Source of the DNA: Dehalococcoidia bacterium
Lineage (GTDB): Bacteria; Chloroflexota; Dehalococcoidia; UBA2979
Assembly: GCA_019694855.1 (NCBI GenBank)
Contig: JAIBBD010000012.1
Coordinates: 1 to 45,472, forward strand
DNA length: 45,472 bases
Direction of reading: 5' to 3'
Under the pieces are notes generated by a model that worked only from the letters and a program-made list of their open reading frames with translations, was not told the origin of the DNA and made no database searches. Made by a program: the position numbers and the translations under genes. This document shows, in pieces, positions 33,844 through 43,155 of this stretch. The first letter of the stretch is position 1. Every line of letters begins with the position of its first letter.

Positions 33844-35076
33844 TCAGGAGAGCTGCCGCACCACGCCTCGGAAGGTCTTAGCCACCTGCTCGAGCTCCGG
33901 GAGTCCGGCCCTGGACAGCTCGTCGGCGTGGTCCGCGAGCTCGCCGAAGCGCTCCCGGAGCAGCCGCCAGGCGGCGTCTTTGTAGGGCAGCGGGTGCAGT
34001 GTCCGCACGACGAAGCTCGGTCCGGCGGTACGACCCGGGTGGCGCACCCCCGCGGGCATGCGCGCGAGCAGCTCACCGAGCGGCACGAGCGTGCCCGCCA
34101 TTGTCTCGATCGCCGTGTTGCACAGCGCGTCGGCCTCCTCGTCGCTCTCGTCCGTCATCACGAAGAAGCGCGCGAGCAGATGGAGCATCGAGACGTACGC
34201 CTCGTTGAACAGGTCGCTGAGCCGAATCGCCGGCTCGTGATCGATCAGGTTGACTGGACCGTTCGCTTCCGGAGGCGTGCGCGTGAACGGGTTCTCGAGC
34301 ATTGGGTATGCCGGCTCGAAGCCCGGGTGCGTCTCGCGGAAGGCGAGATACTCCTCGAGGATGCGATTGAAGCGAGCGTAGTGAGAGTCGGGATTCCCGC
34401 TCGAGTCGCCCTCACCTTGCTCGACGACGTGCGCGAGGTTGCGCGCGGTCGTTCCGATGTCGACGATCGGTTCCCACCCGCTGGACTCGAAGAAGCGCCG
34501 GAATGCCGGCCGCGGGGGCGGGCCCACGAAGACGTTTTCTTCGCCCAGCCGCTCGACAAGCGCGCGCAGACTGTTCTCGGCCACTGAGTACACGTCGCCC
34601 TGGGAGTCGAACTGGCGGGGGTCGGCCCCGATCTTGTTGTCCATATCGCCCTCGATGCGCTGGAGCCGCTCGGGGGAGGTGTACGCGGGGAGGTTCGAGC
34701 CGTCCGGCTGCTCGACCGCGATGAAGTGGCGCAGCACCTCCTCGCTGAACGGTCGTAGCTCGATCTGGTAGTCGGGCAGGTACCATGCGCAGTCGTGAGG
34801 GAAGTTCGGGCGGTCGAAGTTCGGAGCTGCCCCCAGCGCGGTCAGCAGGTTGTTGACGACCGCGAGGTGGAACATCTCCTCGACGGCCACCTGGATGATG
34901 CTGCGTTTCCAGCCGAGCACCGACTCTACCGCGTCGGCGGGCAGTCCTTCCTCGACGCTCTTCTTCAGGGAGAAGGCCGTGAACAGGTAGCTGCACGACA
35001 GGCTGTGTTCCAGCTCGGTCGCCTGGTTCAGCATGAAGACGAGTTCATCTCGGTGGGATGCGACGACGTCGGTCAC
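33844..35076 (-). CDS. Ferritin-like domain protein, VioB/PF12902 type
   Basis: 410-residue protein whose first half is a ferritin-like four-helix domain of the type in VioB and related oxidative coupling proteins. Candidate di-metal ligands are in [16 protein letters not shown] and [16 protein letters not shown]. The second half is helical, with [13 protein letters not shown], and has no recognised domain. VioB-like members bind iron or other cofactors, and catalysis here is not assured. GTG 35076 has GGAGAG upstream. It is divergent from the double-CDGSH gene; that pairing suggests iron or redox work. Confidence 0.85.
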
Positions 35077-35270
35077 GAGCGCTCTCCGTTTCGACTGGAA
35101 GGACGCAACGCACCACGCTCGCGCGGACTGCGCTGCCGAGGCGCGAACGGACGGTACTCCGGCGACCGATCGCGAGCAACGCCGCTCCAGGAAAACCGCG
35201 AGATAAGCATGTTTCGCCGGCGATCACTATGCTGTGCGACCGAACAACGACGCTCCGAGGGAGAACAAGA
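35077..35270. other. Divergent intergenic region, ferritin-like and CDGSH genes
   Basis: This 194-base gap holds no gene. A -10-like TATGCT (35228-35233) could serve the CDGSH gene. AGCAT/ATGCT arms flank a CGCCGGCG palindrome. No consensus -35 is seen on either strand. Confidence 0.3.
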
Positions 35271-35939
35271 GTGGACGACCAGCCGCACATCCAGATCGAC
35301 GTCAACGGGCCCTATATCGTGGATGGCCCTGTGCCCCTCACGGAGATGGCGCCAGTGCACACGCTGAATGGCGAGCCCGTCGACTGGCATGTCCTCGGTG
35401 CCATCGAGTCCGAGGAGTGGCCGGCCTATCTGTGCCGCTGCGGAGGCTCGAAGAACAAGCCGTTCTGCGACAGCAGCCATGAGTCGAATGGCTTCGACGG
35501 AACCGAGGCAGCGGATCGCCGCCCGTTCGCGGAGCGCGCCGTTGTGGACGAGGGCGCGCACGAGCAACTGCTTGACGACAAGCCGCTCTGCGTGCGGGCC
35601 GGCTTCTGCCGCACGCGCACGACCAGTGTCTGGGATCTGCTGGCGCTCGGTGGCGACCCCGAGGCCGCCGAACGGCTCCGCGAAATGACCTGGAACTGCC
35701 CGTCGGGCCGACTCGTCCTGCGAGACCTCGATGGCAATGACATCGAGCCCGAGCTCGCGCCCGAGGTCGGGGTGGTCCCCGGCGGTCCGCTCTGGATTCG
35801 CGGGGGCATCCGTGTGACTGGCTCAGACGGCACGGAATGGGAGACGAGGAACCGCGTGGCCCTGTGTCGCTGCGGTGGCTCGGCCAGCAAGCCGTTCTGC
35901 GACGGCGCCCACCTGCGGCGTCATTTCGACGAGCGGTAG
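35271..35939 (+). CDS. Iron-sulfur protein with two CDGSH domains and a Fer4_19-like centre
   Basis: 222-residue protein with two CDGSH Fe-S modules: CRCGGSKNKPFCDSSH (Cys55, Cys57, Cys66, His70) and CRCGGSASKPFCDGAH (Cys199, Cys201, Cys210, His214). Each fits the 3Cys-1His [2Fe-2S] pattern. Between them, LCVRAGFCRT (Cys107, Cys113) and WNCPSGRLVL (Cys143) resemble the divergent 4Fe-4S domain Fer4_19. Such proteins are thought to transfer electrons or clusters or to sense redox state. GTG 35271 has GAGGGAG upstream. Its neighbours are a ferritin-like protein and a heliorhodopsin, consistent with redox stress handling. Confidence 0.93.
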   Translation: MDDQPHIQIDVNGPYIVDGPVPLTEMAPVHTLNGEPVDWHVLGAIESEEWPAYLCRCGGSKNKPFCDSSHESNGFDGTEAADRRPFAERAVVDEGAHEQLLDDKPLCVRAGFCRTRTTSVWDLLALGGDPEAAERLREMTWNCPSGRLVLRDLDGNDIEPELAPEVGVVPGGPLWIRGGIRVTGSDGTEWETRNRVALCRCGGSASKPFCDGAHLRRHFDER

Positions 35940-35970: not shown

Positions 35971-36735
35971 TCAGTCCGCGAGCGTCGAGGCAAAGACCTG
36001 CCACGCGAGCGCGGACTTCGCCGTCAGGCTGAGGAAGACGTATACCGTCTCGCCAAAGACATAGTCGCGCCACGGCCCGACCCGCCGGTACTGCAACCAC
36101 ATGTTCAGCGCGAAGACGTTGAAGAACAGAAACAGCGAGATAAAGATCCCGTAGACGAACGCGGGTGGATCCGCTGGCGAACCGGGCGTCACGAAGTAGA
36201 TCGCAATCGCGACCCACGGCACGGCGCCCGCGATGCAGCCCACCCAGAACGGGAGCAACCCGCCGTCGCCCGGCCGCTCTGTGTGCTCCTGCACCAGGCC
36301 GAGCAGGATCATCGTCGCGTTCACCCCGAACAACCCGACGAGCGCGGCGATGTCGCCGATGCCCGTGAGCATCGCAATCAGCACGATCATGATCGAGGCG
36401 CTGAACGCGTACTCGATCCAGCGCGCGTCGTTGCGGCCGCGTTCGAGGTTCCTCGTGTACCACCCGAACACGCCTGGCAACACGAGGAGGAAGTGCGCCG
36501 CCGCCGAGATGAATACGAACGCCGCGACTGCCGGCCCGATGCGCAGATCGAAGAGATGGTCGAGTTCAGCTGGCCCCGAACCCGGTGGGCCCTGCATGAA
36601 CGTCGCGTGCACGGGTAGCGAGAAGTCGTTGCTCAGCGCGAGGAGCGCTAGGCCCTGCGCCAGGTGGAGCACGCCCATCCCGAGGTTGTACCAGCGGAGC
36701 CGCCGGAATCGCCGCGTCGTTGTCTCGTCGGTCAC
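35971..36735 (-). CDS. Heliorhodopsin
   Basis: 254-residue seven-helix retinal protein of the heliorhodopsin family, distant from type-1 rhodopsins and inverted in the membrane. Diagnostic segments are RLRWYNLGMGVLHLAQGLA, GVFGWYTRNLERG, RWIEYAFSASIMIVLIAML and FFNVFALNMWLQYRRVG. The retinal Lys is Lys240 in LSLTAKSALAWQ, with Ser236 four residues before it. Glu108 in WIEY fits the Schiff-base counterion, and His24 and His81 match the conserved pocket His residues. GTG 36735 has GGGAGG five bases upstream. It is divergent from a peroxiredoxin-like gene. The function of the family is unsettled; a light sensor or regulator is likely. Confidence 0.95.
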   Translation of the reverse strand: MTDETTTRRFRRLRWYNLGMGVLHLAQGLALLALSNDFSLPVHATFMQGPPGSGPAELDHLFDLRIGPAVAAFVFISAAAHFLLVLPGVFGWYTRNLERGRNDARWIEYAFSASIMIVLIAMLTGIGDIAALVGLFGVNATMILLGLVQEHTERPGDGGLLPFWVGCIAGAVPWVAIAIYFVTPGSPADPPAFVYGIFISLFLFFNVFALNMWLQYRRVGPWRDYVFGETVYVFLSLTAKSALAWQVFASTLAD

Positions 36736-36763
36736 GCATCCTCCCGCCATCTCGTGCGTCTGA

Positions 36764-36815
36764 ATCCAGCGTAGCGCATCGCCGGAGCGCCGCCCGCGGC
36801 CCCCGTACACTGGAT
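36764..36815. promoter_or_regulatory. Back-to-back promoters of heliorhodopsin and PRXL2-type genes
   Basis: The 103-base divergent gap carries TACGCTGGAT on the minus strand (36773 to 36764) and TACACTGGAT on the plus strand (36806-36815), nine of ten bases shared. Each has a -10 as its first six bases and predicts a leader of about 20-26 nt with a good ribosome site. No consensus -35 is seen on either side. Both genes could therefore share one regulator. Confidence 0.55.
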
Positions 36816-36838
36816 CGTGAAGAGAACGGAGCGCGCAG

Positions 36839-37390
36839 TTGGAGCGAGTGACAACCGAGACGGCAACGCTCAATGTACTTACGCCCGAGGGTGGCTCGCT
36901 TTCCCTCGAGACGCTCTGGGCGGATGCGCCGCTACTCCTGGTTCTCGTGCGCCACTATGGCTGCCAGTTCTGCCGCGAGCAGATCGCGCAGTTGCGTCGT
37001 ATCCTGCCCGACCTGGAGCGGGCCGGGGTGGACGTCGCCATCATCGGCAACGGTACGCCGCTCATGGCGCAGGCATTCGTCGAGGAGACGGGTCTCGAGG
37101 TTCCGCTCTATACGAACCCGGGCCGTGAGGTCTACCGTGCACTCGGCGCGCGGCGTCCCTCGCTGCTCGCCATGCTCGACCCGCGGTTGTGGCTGAACGG
37201 CCTGCGAGCGATGTCGCGCGGCTACCTCCCCCACCGCGTCCAGGGCGACGCCGCGCAGCTCGGTGGCGTGTTCTTGATCCTGCCCGATGCCTCGATGCCG
37301 TTCGCCCATCGGAGTGACCGCGGAGGCGACTACCCGTCGAACGCCTCTATCCTTGACGCCGTCCGTTCCCTTGAGCGGATGGCGGCCTGA
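36839..37390 (+). CDS. Peroxiredoxin-like protein, AhpC-TSA_2/PRXL2 type
   Basis: 183-residue thioredoxin-fold protein of the AhpC/TSA_2 (PRXL2) group. The active-site motif is RHYGCQFCREQ with Cys42 and Cys45, followed by VDVAIIGNGTPLMAQAF and EVPLYTNPGREVYRALGA, typical of this family. Enzymes here are thought to reduce peroxides or act as thiol oxidoreductases, but few are characterised. TTG 36839 has GGAG seven bases upstream; GTG 36848 is the alternative. It is transcribed away from the heliorhodopsin gene with mirrored promoters, suggesting common control. Confidence 0.92.
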   Translation: MERVTTETATLNVLTPEGGSLSLETLWADAPLLLVLVRHYGCQFCREQIAQLRRILPDLERAGVDVAIIGNGTPLMAQAFVEETGLEVPLYTNPGREVYRALGARRPSLLAMLDPRLWLNGLRAMSRGYLPHRVQGDAAQLGGVFLILPDASMPFAHRSDRGGDYPSNASILDAVRSLERMAA

Positions 37391-38240: not shown

Positions 38241-40571
38241 CTACTCCGCGGCTGGAGTGCTCGCCCCGGCCTGCCGAGGCGTGACGCGCCAGTTGCGCTC
38301 GCCCATCAACTGCTTGAACTGACCGATGCGGACGATGATGTTCTTCATTTCGGTGTAGAACAGCGTCGCGAAGAACAGGTAGACGAAGAACCAGCCCTTA
38401 TGGCGCTTGATGTCGGGCGCCGCCGCGAAATAGGCAAGCAGCGTCTGGCCTGGCCCGACGATGAACGTGAAGATCGATGTGAATACGAACACGGGCACGA
38501 ACCAGTCGAGTGAGCTGGTCGTGAGCCAGAAGGCGACGATCGGGAAAATCTGCAGGGAGATCCACGGATACAGCTCGCGCCATACGAGCAGGTGCAGCAT
38601 TCCCAGTTTCTGGCGGAACGAGAGATGCCGCGAACGCATGCTCGGGATGAAGTGCAGCAGCGAGACCTGGAACCAGCCCTGCGACCATCGCATCCGCTGA
38701 TTCCAGAGCTGCTTCAGCGTCACCGTCGCGAGTTCTGCCGAGATCAACCGTCCGTCCGAGGCGATGCGTGCGCCCACCTCGACCGCTCGCATCGAGGAGT
38801 CGATGTCTTCCGTGAGCATCGTGCTGCGCATACGCGTGCGGTGCAGCCGGTCGGTGCGCCAGAAGCCGTTGGACCCGCCGAACAACCCAAAGCCGTGGAG
38901 GACGGTCCGCCCCGGATGGCTGACCGCGTAGATCCCCTCGAACTCGATGGCAACCATGCGGGCGATCCAGGAGGCCGTCCCGTTCCGCACCATGCAATGC
39001 CCCTGGACGATGTCGTAGCCGTCTGAAATCCAGCGCCAGGCGCGCTGGAAGCTACCCGGTGCCGGCATGTGATCCGCGTCGAACACGCCGACGAATTCGC
39101 CCGTCACCTGCTCGAGCGCCCCGTTCACGTTCTGGGCTTTCGAGGTGCTGCCATCCACCTTCAGCGCCAGGAAGTGGGGGAACTCGTACGTGAGTTGCTG
39201 CAGGCGTGCCTCGATCGGCATCGGTGTGGGGGTGTTGTAGGCAAGGATGACCTGGAGCGTATTCGGGTACTCAATGTGGAGGAACGTCTCGAGCGTCTGC
39301 ATGATGGTCGCTGCTTCGTTCGGCAGGTAGGCGGCAATGATCGCGGTGGCTGGCGGGTATGGCTGCCGCGGCTCCTCGGGCGGCTGTGGCGCCCGAAACG
39401 AGAGGATGCCCTCAATCCAGATCAGCGTGCCAGTGATCAGAAGCGCCACCACGACCGTGAGGTACATCGGGTAGCTGATGTCCCAGCCTGCCCGGTACAG
39501 CGCGAGGTACCCGAAGTACGGAAGCACGATCCCGACGGCAAGTGTCAGGACGATCTGGATCGGCAAGCGCAGCGCGCTGAAGAATCGGCGCCAGAGTGCG
39601 CGTCCGCTCGCTCCTCGCGCCGAGCGTTGTGCGCGCGCCCAGGCGATGACCCGGTCGTCGGCGATCACCGGACGCAGGTCGCCCTGGCTGGCGGCGAACT
39701 CGTAGGCGAAGGAGGCCAGCTCGAGCCAGTCGTCTGCCGACTTCGCCTTCGTGCTGGCGGAGTACCCCATGTTCGGGGTGAGCAGTACCCGCTGCCCCTC
39801 GATGTTGAACGTGCGCCCGGTAATGTCGAGCGTGAGCCGCCGTAGCACTTGAATCGCCTGGTCGGCGTCAGTCTCGGGCATCATCACCCAGATCGTGTCC
39901 GACCCGATGCCAGCCACGAGGTCAAGGTCGCGCAGCGCGCCACGCGTCACGTGCACGCCGTCTCGCATCGCCCGCGCCGCCGCCACCCCGCCGAGGCGGC
40001 CCCGGATGACGTCCATCTCCTGGAACGAGATCCACGCCAGGGTGGCGGGCAGGCCGCCCCGCTGGAAGCGCGCGAACTCCCGACCCAATTCTTCCCGGAA
40101 GCTCCGCTCGGTCAGCAGACCGCTGCCCGGGTCACGGTCGAGCATGGGCGCGGGCACGGGCACGCGCGCCAGCTTGGCGCGCACCCGTGCGGCCAGCTCC
40201 TCGCCCTTGAATGGCTTCGTGAGGTAGTCGTCGCCTCCGAGTTCGAGCGCCCGGACGATGTCCGAGGTTTCGCTCATCGAACTCAGGAATACGACCGGGA
40301 TACGCGTCAGCTCCGGGTCTTCACGCAGATGCCGCACGAGCTCGAGGCCGCTGACCGTCGGCATGTCGACGTCCGTGAGCACGATGTCTGGACGCAGGCT
40401 ATCGATGAGTTCCATCGCCTCGGCGCCGTCGCGCGCCGCGATGACTGAGAGCCCCTCTGCCTGAAGGACGCGCGTCGCAATCGCCAGAATCAACTCATCG
40501 TCGTCGACGGCGAGGACGAGCTTGCCGGCGATCGGGTTGGCCACGTTCGTCACGCTCGTGTCGGTGGTCAT
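38241..40571 (-). CDS. Response regulator-GGDEF-like-glycosyltransferase 2 fusion protein
   Basis: 776 residues in three parts. (1) Receiver domain (about 17-135): acidic pocket VDDDE, phospho-Asp67 in LTDVDMP, Lys119 in LTKPF. (2) GGDEF-like domain (about 145-300), degenerate: the active-site site reads GIGSDTIW instead of GGDEF, so diguanylate cyclase activity is unlikely. (3) Two helices, then a processive GT2 domain resembling cellulose/hyaluronan synthases: DAD (498-500), TED (587-589) and QRMRW (625-629), with several C-terminal helices. This suggests a polysaccharide synthase switched by phosphorylation. Its ATG overlaps the stop of the histidine kinase gene, so the pair is co-translated. 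Confidence 0.93.
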   Translation of the reverse strand: MTTDTSVTNVANPIAGKLVLAVDDDELILAIATRVLQAEGLSVIAARDGAEAMELIDSLRPDIVLTDVDMPTVSGLELVRHLREDPELTRIPVVFLSSMSETSDIVRALELGGDDYLTKPFKGEELAARVRAKLARVPVPAPMLDRDPGSGLLTERSFREELGREFARFQRGGLPATLAWISFQEMDVIRGRLGGVAAARAMRDGVHVTRGALRDLDLVAGIGSDTIWVMMPETDADQAIQVLRRLTLDITGRTFNIEGQRVLLTPNMGYSASTKAKSADDWLELASFAYEFAASQGDLRPVIADDRVIAWARAQRSARGASGRALWRRFFSALRLPIQIVLTLAVGIVLPYFGYLALYRAGWDISYPMYLTVVVALLITGTLIWIEGILSFRAPQPPEEPRQPYPPATAIIAAYLPNEAATIMQTLETFLHIEYPNTLQVILAYNTPTPMPIEARLQQLTYEFPHFLALKVDGSTSKAQNVNGALEQVTGEFVGVFDADHMPAPGSFQRAWRWISDGYDIVQGHCMVRNGTASWIARMVAIEFEGIYAVSHPGRTVLHGFGLFGGSNGFWRTDRLHRTRMRSTMLTEDIDSSMRAVEVGARIASDGRLISAELATVTLKQLWNQRMRWSQGWFQVSLLHFIPSMRSRHLSFRQKLGMLHLLVWRELYPWISLQIFPIVAFWLTTSSLDWFVPVFVFTSIFTFIVGPGQTLLAYFAAAPDIKRHKGWFFVYLFFATLFYTEMKNIIVRIGQFKQLMGERNWRVTPRQAGASTPAAE

Positions 40572-43054
40572 GGGCGTCTCCCCCGTGCGATCACGAGGAA
40601 GCGGTCGAGCGATGTCGCCAGTCCGGAGACCGTTTCGGCGCTCACCGCCGTGCCAGCCGCCCCCGCCTGCTCGACGCTCGCGGCGTTCGAGGACAGCGCG
40701 ACCGCGCCCACGCTGGCGGAAAGCCCCTTCAGCGAATGCGCGGCCTGCCGGCTCTCGGCGGCGTCGGCCCGCTCCGCGGCGCCGCGCAGCGTCTCGAGCC
40801 GCGTCCGAGCCTCGTTCGCGAACAGCTCGAGGAGCGATTGCTCTCCCGGCTCATCGAGTTCCAGCAGTGCATCGAGACGGTCGAAGTCAATGGCGTCGTC
40901 CACGAAGTCCTCCCCTGTCGGCGGCTCCGGTGTCTGCGCATTGCGGTGCAGACTCTCGGTAAGCTGGGCGAGCGTGAACGGTTTCGGGAGGATGTCGTTG
41001 AAGCCGGAACGCAGGCAATTCTCGCGTTCCTCAGGAGTGACGCTCGCGGTCATCGCGAGGATCGGCAGTAGCCCTCCGGCGTCGCGGATCCGACGGAGCG
41101 CCTGGAAGCCGTCCATGATTGGCATTGAGATGTCCATCAGGATGAGGTCGTAGTCGCCTTCAGCGGCGGCACGCACGCCCGACTCCCCGTCGCTTGCGAG
41201 GTCGGAGGGGATTCCGAGGCGCGCCAGCATTCGCGAGGCGATCACGCGGTTAGTCTCGTTGTCGTCCACCACGAGGACGCGGCGGATGTTCAGTGCCTCG
41301 GCTGCGGCCGCACTCACTGGCGTCGCGGCGGAGGCGGAGTCGGTCGGTTCCGTCCACGCCGGCAGCGGCAGCAGCACGCGGAACACTGAGCCGCGTCCTG
41401 GCTCGCTCTCCACCTCAATCGCCCCACCCATGAGCTTGACGAGGCTCAATGAGATCGAGAGACCGAGGCCCGTGCCGCCGAACCGCCTCGTCGTGCTCGA
41501 CTCGGCCTGCTCAAATGGCTCGAAGATCGCTGCGAGGCGGGACGGGTCAATGCCAATGCCCGTGTCGCGCACCCGGATTTCGACACCGCTTCCGCCATCT
41601 AGGCGAGGCGCGGTCTCCACCGTGACCTCCCCGGTCGGCGTGTACTTCACCGCGTTCCCCACGAGGTTCATCAGTACTTGGCGGATGCGCGTCCGGTCTC
41701 CTACGAACTCGGATGGTAGTCCTGGGTTCGTCTGCTGCCGCAGCCGGAGGCCCTTCGCGCCCGCGGTGGGCCCGATCATCTCGATCGCCTCGCGCACCAC
41801 CGCCGCGAGCTCGAAACGGGCGTCTTCGAGCGTCAGCTTTCCGGCTTCCAGCTTCGAGAAATCGAGGACATCGTTGATGACATCCAACAGAGCGTGCGCG
41901 GAGACATCGAGTGTGTTCGTCAGGCCGGCCTGCTCGTCATCGAGCGGCGTGGAGCGCAGTAGCTCCACCATGCCGATGACGCCGTGGAGCGGTGTCCGGA
42001 TCTCGTGGGACATACGTGCAAGGAAGTCGGCGCGCGCTTGGTACGCCGCGTCGCGCTCCTGTTCGGCTCGCACGCGGGCGAGACGGCCGCTGACCCAGTT
42101 CGCCATCACGTTCTGCAGGTCGACCTCGCGGGCCTCGAAGGGCCGCGAGTGCGCGGCTAACCCGAAGAAGCTGATGCAGCCGTAGACCGTGCCATCGACG
42201 ATCAACGGCGATCCGAGGTATGCCTGCAATCCGAAGTCGCGGTAGGCCTGGCGTTCCGAGAAGACAGTCCCGGCCACGTCGGCGATCGCCGCCGGCTGGC
42301 CGCTGCTGATCACCTCCGCGCAGAACGTGTTCTCGACGTCCAACATCTGGCCCCGCCGCAGTGGGAATACGTCCGGTCCGTACACCTCGTCGATTTCGTA
42401 GCCGGTGCTGGTCATGTGACCGATGAGGCCTGCGTCCATCCCAAAGAGCTGGCAACCGAAGTTCAGCAGCCGATTGAGCTGTTCGGACAGGTCGAGGCCC
42501 GCGTCGGCGGTCAGGGTGTACAGGCTGCGCAGCGCGTCCTCTTGCTCGAGGAGTGACAGCAGCAGGTTGCTCCGTCGCAACTGCAGCCGGTCCATGACAT
42601 GTCGGCAGAGCAGCTGCAACGCGTTCTGCTGACTTGCGGAGAGCGTGGCCGGCTCGCTCCCAAGCACCATGACCGCCCCGACCCGGATCCCCTCCGGCGT
42701 GGTGAGCGGCGCTGCCGCGACGAAGTGGACGCCGTAAGTCGTGAGCAGTGGGTGGGCGGGCCACCGATCGGCGATCGCCTCACCGCTGACGATGAGTGCA
42801 TCGCCGCTGCCCGCGACCAGGTCTCGAGTGAGCGACTGGCTCATTGGCAGGGAGGCGGCTTCGAAGCCGACCGTGGCCTTGAACCACTCCCGCTCTCCGT
42901 CGAGGAACGAGATCGTCGCCATCGACGTTCCGCAGGCGAGGGCGGCCAGCGAGGCGAGGCCGTCAAGCTCGGGTTCGGATCGCGCCTCGAGCACCTCGAG
43001 GTCACGCAGCGCGCCGAGCCGCTCTTCCACTCGGTCCACGATCTGCTCAGTCAT
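40568..43054 (-). CDS. Hybrid histidine kinase: GAF-GAF-HisKA-HATPase-REC-HPt
   Basis: 828-residue soluble sensor kinase. Two GAF-type sensor domains (about 20-155 and 180-335) lead to a HisKA helix with His350 in ARMSHEIRTPLHGVIG, an HATPase with N-box LMNLVGNAVKY and G boxes RDTGIGI and FGGTGLGL, a receiver with Asp641 in LILMDISMP, and an HPt with His773 in AAHSLKGLSA. A complete His-Asp-His relay is thus inside one chain and could pass phosphate to the fused receiver of the next gene. No membrane helix is seen. ATG 43054 is the likely start though no ribosome site precedes it; a longer frame from GTG 43129 is possible. Confidence 0.93.
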   Translation of the reverse strand: MTEQIVDRVEERLGALRDLEVLEARSEPELDGLASLAALACGTSMATISFLDGEREWFKATVGFEAASLPMSQSLTRDLVAGSGDALIVSGEAIADRWPAHPLLTTYGVHFVAAAPLTTPEGIRVGAVMVLGSEPATLSASQQNALQLLCRHVMDRLQLRRSNLLLSLLEQEDALRSLYTLTADAGLDLSEQLNRLLNFGCQLFGMDAGLIGHMTSTGYEIDEVYGPDVFPLRRGQMLDVENTFCAEVISSGQPAAIADVAGTVFSERQAYRDFGLQAYLGSPLIVDGTVYGCISFFGLAAHSRPFEAREVDLQNVMANWVSGRLARVRAEQERDAAYQARADFLARMSHEIRTPLHGVIGMVELLRSTPLDDEQAGLTNTLDVSAHALLDVINDVLDFSKLEAGKLTLEDARFELAAVVREAIEMIGPTAGAKGLRLRQQTNPGLPSEFVGDRTRIRQVLMNLVGNAVKYTPTGEVTVETAPRLDGGSGVEIRVRDTGIGIDPSRLAAIFEPFEQAESSTTRRFGGTGLGLSISLSLVKLMGGAIEVESEPGRGSVFRVLLPLPAWTEPTDSASAATPVSAAAAEALNIRRVLVVDDNETNRVIASRMLARLGIPSDLASDGESGVRAAAEGDYDLILMDISMPIMDGFQALRRIRDAGGLLPILAMTASVTPEERENCLRSGFNDILPKPFTLAQLTESLHRNAQTPEPPTGEDFVDDAIDFDRLDALLELDEPGEQSLLELFANEARTRLETLRGAAERADAAESRQAAHSLKGLSASVGAVALSSNAASVEQAGAAGTAVSAETVSGLATSLDRFLVIARGRRP

Positions 43055-43155
43055 CGTCGGGCGTGGCGGGTGCCACAGCGCGACCCGCGCTCGGCCGGAA
43101 CGCGAAGCGGGCGCGGTCGGCAACACCAAATTGAGGCGCCGGTCTCATCGAGGTA

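Follow-up and report, generated by a model that had tools for sequence, protein, structure and literature searches.

The window analysed here, a stretch of 45,472 nucleotides from a Dehalococcoidia bacterium (phylum Chloroflexota; contig JAIBBD010000012.1 of assembly GCA_019694855.1), carries a genuine heliorhodopsin (HeR) gene back to back with a genuine gene for a CxxC thiol redox protein of the SelL/PRXL2 type. The explanation that we favor, with a probability of roughly 0.55, is that the adjacency of the two genes is specific to this lineage, and that in relatives each of them separately belongs to a set of light and photo-oxidative stress genes arranged around a B12-dependent photoreceptor repressor of the CarH/LitR type. 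Positions of the relevant features are collected in Table 1.

Table 1. Features of the HeR/redox gene locus (positions are those of the window)
Feature	Position	Strand	Basis and remarks
Heliorhodopsin (HeR) gene	35971..36735	-	254 aa, GTG start at 36735; PF18761, NCBIfam HeR, PDB alignment
Divergent intergenic region, 103 bp	36736..36838		Without sigma-70-like promoter, CarH-type 11-bp repeats or TGACGAA box
Inverted repeat, left arm ATCCAGCGTA (minus strand TACGCTGGAT)	36764..36773	-	9/10; HeR '-10' of the initial annotation
Inverted repeat, right arm TACACTGGAT	36806..36815	+	9/10; peroxiredoxin '-10' of the initial annotation
SelL-related/PRXL2-type thiol redox protein gene (PF13911)	36839..37390	+	TTG start, fits the starts of relatives; PF13911, NF040769, alignment
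CxxC active-site codons (Cys42, Cys45) of the redox gene	36962..36973	+	Cys42 position corresponds to an in-frame TGA in many relatives

Both genes proved to be what the initial annotation had taken them for. It had described a complete heliorhodopsin with Lys240, Ser236, Glu108, His24 and His81. The protein matches the PF18761 profile over its full length with 337 bits (cut-off 26.7) and the NCBIfam HeR equivalog with 322 bits (cut-off 100). In the comparison with the PDB the top match is a heliorhodopsin, with the 48C12 HeR a near second, and the solved HeRs, 48C12 included, align with the window protein from end to end. The GTG start codon has a GGAGG ribosome-binding site and agrees with the start of the homolog in one genome of the same family (G008). 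Numbered from this codon, all five residues fall where they had been placed (H24, H81, E108, S236, K240), so that the SxxxK motif of helix 7 and the conserved Glu and His residues are all present. In the HeR tree, the window protein stands apart from most HeRs of its own family and clusters with those of f33, a different family in the class (L104, L088, L086, L119), to which it is up to 81% identical; this grouping suggests gene transfer. A search of the window's genome for the retinal-cleaving enzyme BCD (PF15461) gave no match, the same search being silent in its control too.

The second gene had been described as an AhpC-TSA_2/PRXL2-type gene divergent from HeR across 103 bases, and the gap is indeed exactly 103 bp. 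Its product scores 65 bits against PF13911 (cut-off 27), with PF00578 also matched, and 132 bits against the NCBIfam model SelL_rel_redox (NF040769; cut-off 120). Because the nearest solved structure is that of prostamide/prostaglandin F (PGF) synthase, 'PRXL2-type' is a fair label. The protein has two cysteines, both in a single CxxC motif (C42QFC45). A single in-frame TGA occurs in 31 of the 60 class-wide matches of this gene, and in every TGA-bearing locus inspected (for example, L342-L345, L347-L352 and L194-L196) it takes the place of the first CxxC cysteine (RHFG-U-xFC). Judged from this pattern, such relatives appear to be putative UxxC selenoproteins, a kind that is already known (PMC2398784). 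Like the Prx-like UxxC selenoproteins of the GOS survey (PMC2398784) and the members of NF040769, the window protein is peroxiredoxin-like with a Trx fold and has its redox motif at the same place; unlike the selenoproteins, it is the Cys form, with CxxC. Since TGA occupies the first-Cys position in relatives, Cys42 is probably the redox center of the window protein.

We then asked how widely the arrangement of the two genes is shared. HeR loci were gathered from the family (8 of 44 genomes), the class (76 of 393), the phylum (56 of 400) and a named genome collection (20 loci). Their flanks were compared over about 7 kb (as much as 10 kb in the named collection), as far as contigs allowed, using our own gene calls in draft assemblies. 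An upstream gene could be called at 109 HeR loci, and a Pfam scan of these detected a PF13911/PF00578 gene immediately upstream of HeR in the window only; neither Pfam family is found among the upstream families with at least two members, which makes the window the sole case. A profile of the redox protein, run over all HeR flanks, gave the same picture, with a match adjoining HeR in the window alone and another one 8.5 kb away in G008. The notion of a conserved divergent HeR-peroxiredoxin pair was therefore dropped after inspection of about 120 HeR loci and the Pfam tally of immediate neighbors. The initial annotation had itself proposed scoring PF13911 genes as divergent HeR neighbors across Chloroflexota; the count finds one at no other HeR locus examined. 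For adjacency, this lack of conservation in relatives is what the initial annotation had named as refuting its proposal. At a larger distance the two genes do meet again. The class-wide search with the redox protein revealed nine other genomes having both genes, and in two of the nine these lie within 13 kb of each other (8.5 kb in G008 and 12.7 kb in G023; 0.11 expected, p about 0.006).

The other genes of the window do not accompany HeR consistently either: CDGSH, ferritin-like, SUI1, TrpB and kinase genes were looked for in the HeR flanks, and none recurs. A second genome (L126) also has TrpB close to HeR, which we judged a coincidence. Just downstream of the window HeR (33844-35939) lies a divergent gene pair that encodes a double-CDGSH/Fer4_19 iron-sulfur protein and a ferritin-like protein (PF12902); the pair has an iron/redox theme and is not conserved with HeR. 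A receiver-GGDEF-glycosyltransferase protein (38241-40571, minus strand) and a GAF-HisKA-HATPase-receiver-Hpt hybrid kinase (40568-43129, minus strand) are encoded at about 1.5-6 kb from HeR. In the compared flanks these two are not conserved HeR neighbors; two-component genes near HeR were known earlier (PMC8612252).

Such a lack of conservation raises the question of whether rearrangement or transfer simply put HeR beside the redox gene, with no functional tie between them. We consider mere chance neighborhood unlikely as an explanation, though it comes closest among the alternatives. It agrees with the uniqueness of the arrangement among all HeR loci examined, with the unconserved state of the other window neighbors, with the grouping of the window HeR among f33 HeRs, as expected after transfer, with the frequent pairing of redox relatives with CaiB genes and with an intergenic region that holds nothing outstanding. 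What speaks against it is that both genes are recurrent members of CarH-type light clusters in the same family, and that adjacency within 200 bp is very improbable under random placement (0.0017 expected for the nine further genomes that carry the two genes), a figure to be read with the window having been chosen for its pair.

At the other extreme, the initial annotation had proposed a dedicated HeR-peroxiredoxin unit, responding to light or redox state through one bidirectional control region with mirror-image promoters. The divergence over merely 103 bp, a 9/10 inverted repeat roughly at possible -10 positions, and the enrichment of HeR regions in redox proteins, peroxiredoxin being named among them (Bulzu et al. 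2021, PMC8612252), are compatible with such a unit. However, the pair is not conserved, and the supposed two -10 regions, ATCCAGCGTA and TACACTGGAT, are the arms of a single inverted repeat, complementary at 9 of 10 bases, which is within chance: 31 of 150 dinucleotide-preserving shuffles of the 103 bp hold a repeat of at least 9/10. A scan of positions 36650-36950 detected no sigma-70-like promoter on either strand. With the repeat equaled so often in shuffles and no sigma-70 match, it is no evidence of shared control, and we dropped the mirror promoters. Across the 76 kb of the genome that were scanned, the decamer TACRCTGGAT has no further copy and thus shows no sign of being a general promoter element. 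Altogether, a dedicated unit seems improbable to us. From the proposal of one light- or redox-responsive unit, the light and redox theme survives by way of the CarH/LitR clusters of relatives, in which both genes occur; one shared control region draws no support from anything in the window.

A direct interaction, in which HeR would bind the product of its neighbor and modulate the redox enzyme in light, is by analogy conceivable and in our estimate the least probable reading of all. HeRs have been reported to regulate proteins encoded adjacently, namely glutamine synthetase, photolyase and an ABC transporter (PMC9529153, PMC11109279), but in the cases of glutamine synthetase and the ABC transporter the partner is encoded in an operon with HeR, whereas the gene in the window is divergent and the pairing has been seen once.

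The case for the favored explanation comes from the relatives, where HeR repeatedly occurs beside a regulator of the CarH/LitR type. Within the family, HeR is found with a CarH-like regulator in three genomes (G008, G022 and G023). The loci of G008 and G023 have in common a regulator composed of MerR, B12-binding_2 and B12-binding domains, and their clusters include genes for a TIGR01777/DUF1731 SDR, an SRPBCC-like protein (our own label for a protein without a Pfam match), DUF2177, an SDR, an FAD amine oxidase and DUF1365. In G023 photolyase, MpaB and fasciclin genes are present in addition. Two more family members (G032 and G033) have HeR divergent from the genes for the TIGR01777/DUF1731 SDR and the SRPBCC-like protein. 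In a class-wide profile search, 40 of 386 genomes proved to have CarH-like genes, and 17 genomes of the class sample code for both HeR and CarH. The two genes are within 12 kb of each other in seven of these 17 (0.17 expected) and within 2 kb in five (0.03 expected), the expectations, like all others for co-location given here, assuming random gene placement and counting related genomes as independent. In the phylum and named sets, 115 distinct HeR loci were compared, and 15 of them have a CarH-like gene in their flanks, where 0.64 would be expected if each genome carried a single copy; these 15 are partly dependent, since G220 contributes two of them with its HeR copies and several belong to related genomes. 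The immediate upstream neighbor of HeR is a MerR+B12 protein in 5 of 109 loci. In six of the 15 cases CarH and HeR are no more than 260 bp apart, and in four of the six they are divergent, with 175-209 bp between the matched domains. The CarH-linked HeRs are dispersed on the HeR tree, a quick one, in which well-supported branches force at least five changes. A DICT-domain gene is present at L079:5637-6740 and L080:5576-6694.

Residue conservation suggests that these regulators can perceive light. They combine a MerR DNA-binding domain with two B12-binding domains, and their best solved relatives are the CarH proteins of Thermus. In CarH, adenosylcobalamin is contacted by W131, E141, H142 and H177 (PMC11796333), and counterparts of all four are present in the HeR-linked regulators. 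GxxW and EH are kept in 15 of 15 HeR-linked CarH-like proteins, and the cobalt-ligating His and GxxxP in all 14 that do not run into a contig end. Of the published GxxH motif, the His is retained, but the Gly varies in most of the family. The four proteins compared with the NCBIfam CarH equivalog missed its cut-off (121-147 bits versus 400). We thus refer to the regulators beside HeR as CarH-like, predicted B12 photoreceptors and do not call them CarH proper.

The redox gene also has a place near CarH, as one of its two usual contexts in the family. In the first context, seen in nine genomes (L235-L243), it diverges from a gene for a CaiB-type CoA-transferase, with some 70-160 bp between the two. 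In the second, it lies within or adjoins the cluster of CarH, SDR and SRPBCC-like genes (G008, G009, G012, G013, G014, G016 and G023). Of the 18 genomes with both, four have the redox gene within 2.2 kb of CarH (0.045 expected), a count in which the near-identical copies of G013 and G023 possibly represent one transfer. By tree path, the nearest relatives of the window redox protein are those of the CaiB/CoA-transferase-linked group, and as the tree does not place the window gene in the CarH-linked clade, orthology with that clade was rejected. The G008 entry, a fragment, was set aside in this tree; the full-length G008 protein is 44% identical to that of the window.

Possible operators were sought at two levels. 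A TGACGAA box, derived from the CarH/SDR promoters of the family, has four sites in 1338 bp of family HeR upstream regions (0.21 expected); p-values are optimistic here, since the box had been spotted by eye before counting, and two related genomes (G022 and G023) account for three of the four sites. The published CarH operator consensus is nAnnTnnACAn, arranged as 11-bp tandem repeats (PMC8156234). Three 11-bp repeats fitting it occur in the HeR/CarH intergenic regions of two f33 genomes, G312 and G332 (5 of 300 and 0 of 300 shuffles, respectively). These f33 regions alone stood out in the repeat test; repeats in the family HeR promoters (G022, G023, G032 and G033) are not clearly above those in shuffles. 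The intergenic region of the window contains no TGACGAA box, and its best two-repeat score is matched or beaten by 285 of 300 shuffles.

In the window's own genome, the CarH-like regulator is encoded off the window contig, on contig C12. The cluster there (L277:7108-10632) consists of the regulator and genes for the SRPBCC-like protein, a TIGR01777-type SDR and fasciclin, and includes neither HeR nor the redox gene. With no operator in the intergenic region and no CarH on its contig, the window pair was rejected as a CarH-controlled unit. The regulator on C12 makes joint control of the pair in trans possible, if unsupported.

Weighing these observations, we count the co-location of HeR with CarH, of the redox gene with CarH and of HeR with the redox gene, together with the operator matches, in favor of the explanation given at the outset. 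Counting against it are the absence of an operator from the window, the position of CarH on C12 and a redox gene copy from outside the CarH-linked clade. The back-to-back arrangement would accordingly be a lineage-specific juxtaposition of two genes from one light and photo-oxidative guild, perhaps co-regulated. As for the mechanism, HeR, whose sequence contains the lysine that binds retinal together with the residues conserved among HeRs, would sense light, and the redox protein would reduce peroxides or oxidized thiols formed in light. In the relatives, light would make CarH leave its operator, thereby turning on the synthesis of HeR and of the redox protein.

Parts of this picture have precedents. 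Bulzu et al. 2021 (PMC8612252) found HeR regions to be enriched in redox proteins, among which they name peroxiredoxin and catalase, and proposed a role in light-induced oxidative stress; the window likewise has HeR adjoining a thiol/peroxide-defense gene. However, their list of transcriptional linkage comprises co-directional genes at less than 10 bp (glutaredoxin, GSHPx, glyoxalase), whereas the window has a divergent gene of the SelL/PRXL2 type, found next to HeR in one genome. The HeR neighbor groups of Cho et al. 2024 (PMC11109279) include MerR, SDR, DUF2177 and photolyase, and the same gene types recur next to HeR in this phylum; peroxiredoxin is outside their ten groups. Whereas the main text of that study speaks of the 'MerR family' only, here the regulator is resolved as a MerR+B12-binding protein with the CarH photoreceptor residues, and the separate gene types are joined into one cluster. 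Known CarH/LitR clusters (CarH of Thermus and Myxococcus; class II LitR of Pseudomonas, PMC9758184) similarly have a MerR+B12 regulator by genes for photolyase, short-chain dehydrogenase and FAD oxidoreductase. They differ in that HeR as a cluster neighbor was not found in the open-access papers searched, and the window pair lies outside such a cluster. More generally, none of these open-access papers was found to join heliorhodopsin with B12/CarH regulation.

The window pair is thus one more HeR-redox neighborhood and not a conserved module. The linkage of HeR with CarH-type regulators is the more useful and less expected result, and a lead worth following while the function of heliorhodopsins is still unsettled. 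It supplies a candidate light-sensing regulator, a searchable operator and relatives suited to tests of HeR induction by light. We see about an even chance that in Chloroflexota a B12 repressor of the CarH/LitR type, responding to green light, controls the synthesis of HeR as a second photoreceptor, based on retinal, within one photo-oxidative stress regulon, with HeR reporting or adapting to light after the B12 switch and the window pair being a detached part. If this is true, the regulon would also cover photolyase, the TIGR01777/SDR protein, DUF2177, DUF1365 and, in some genomes, the SelL-type redox protein.
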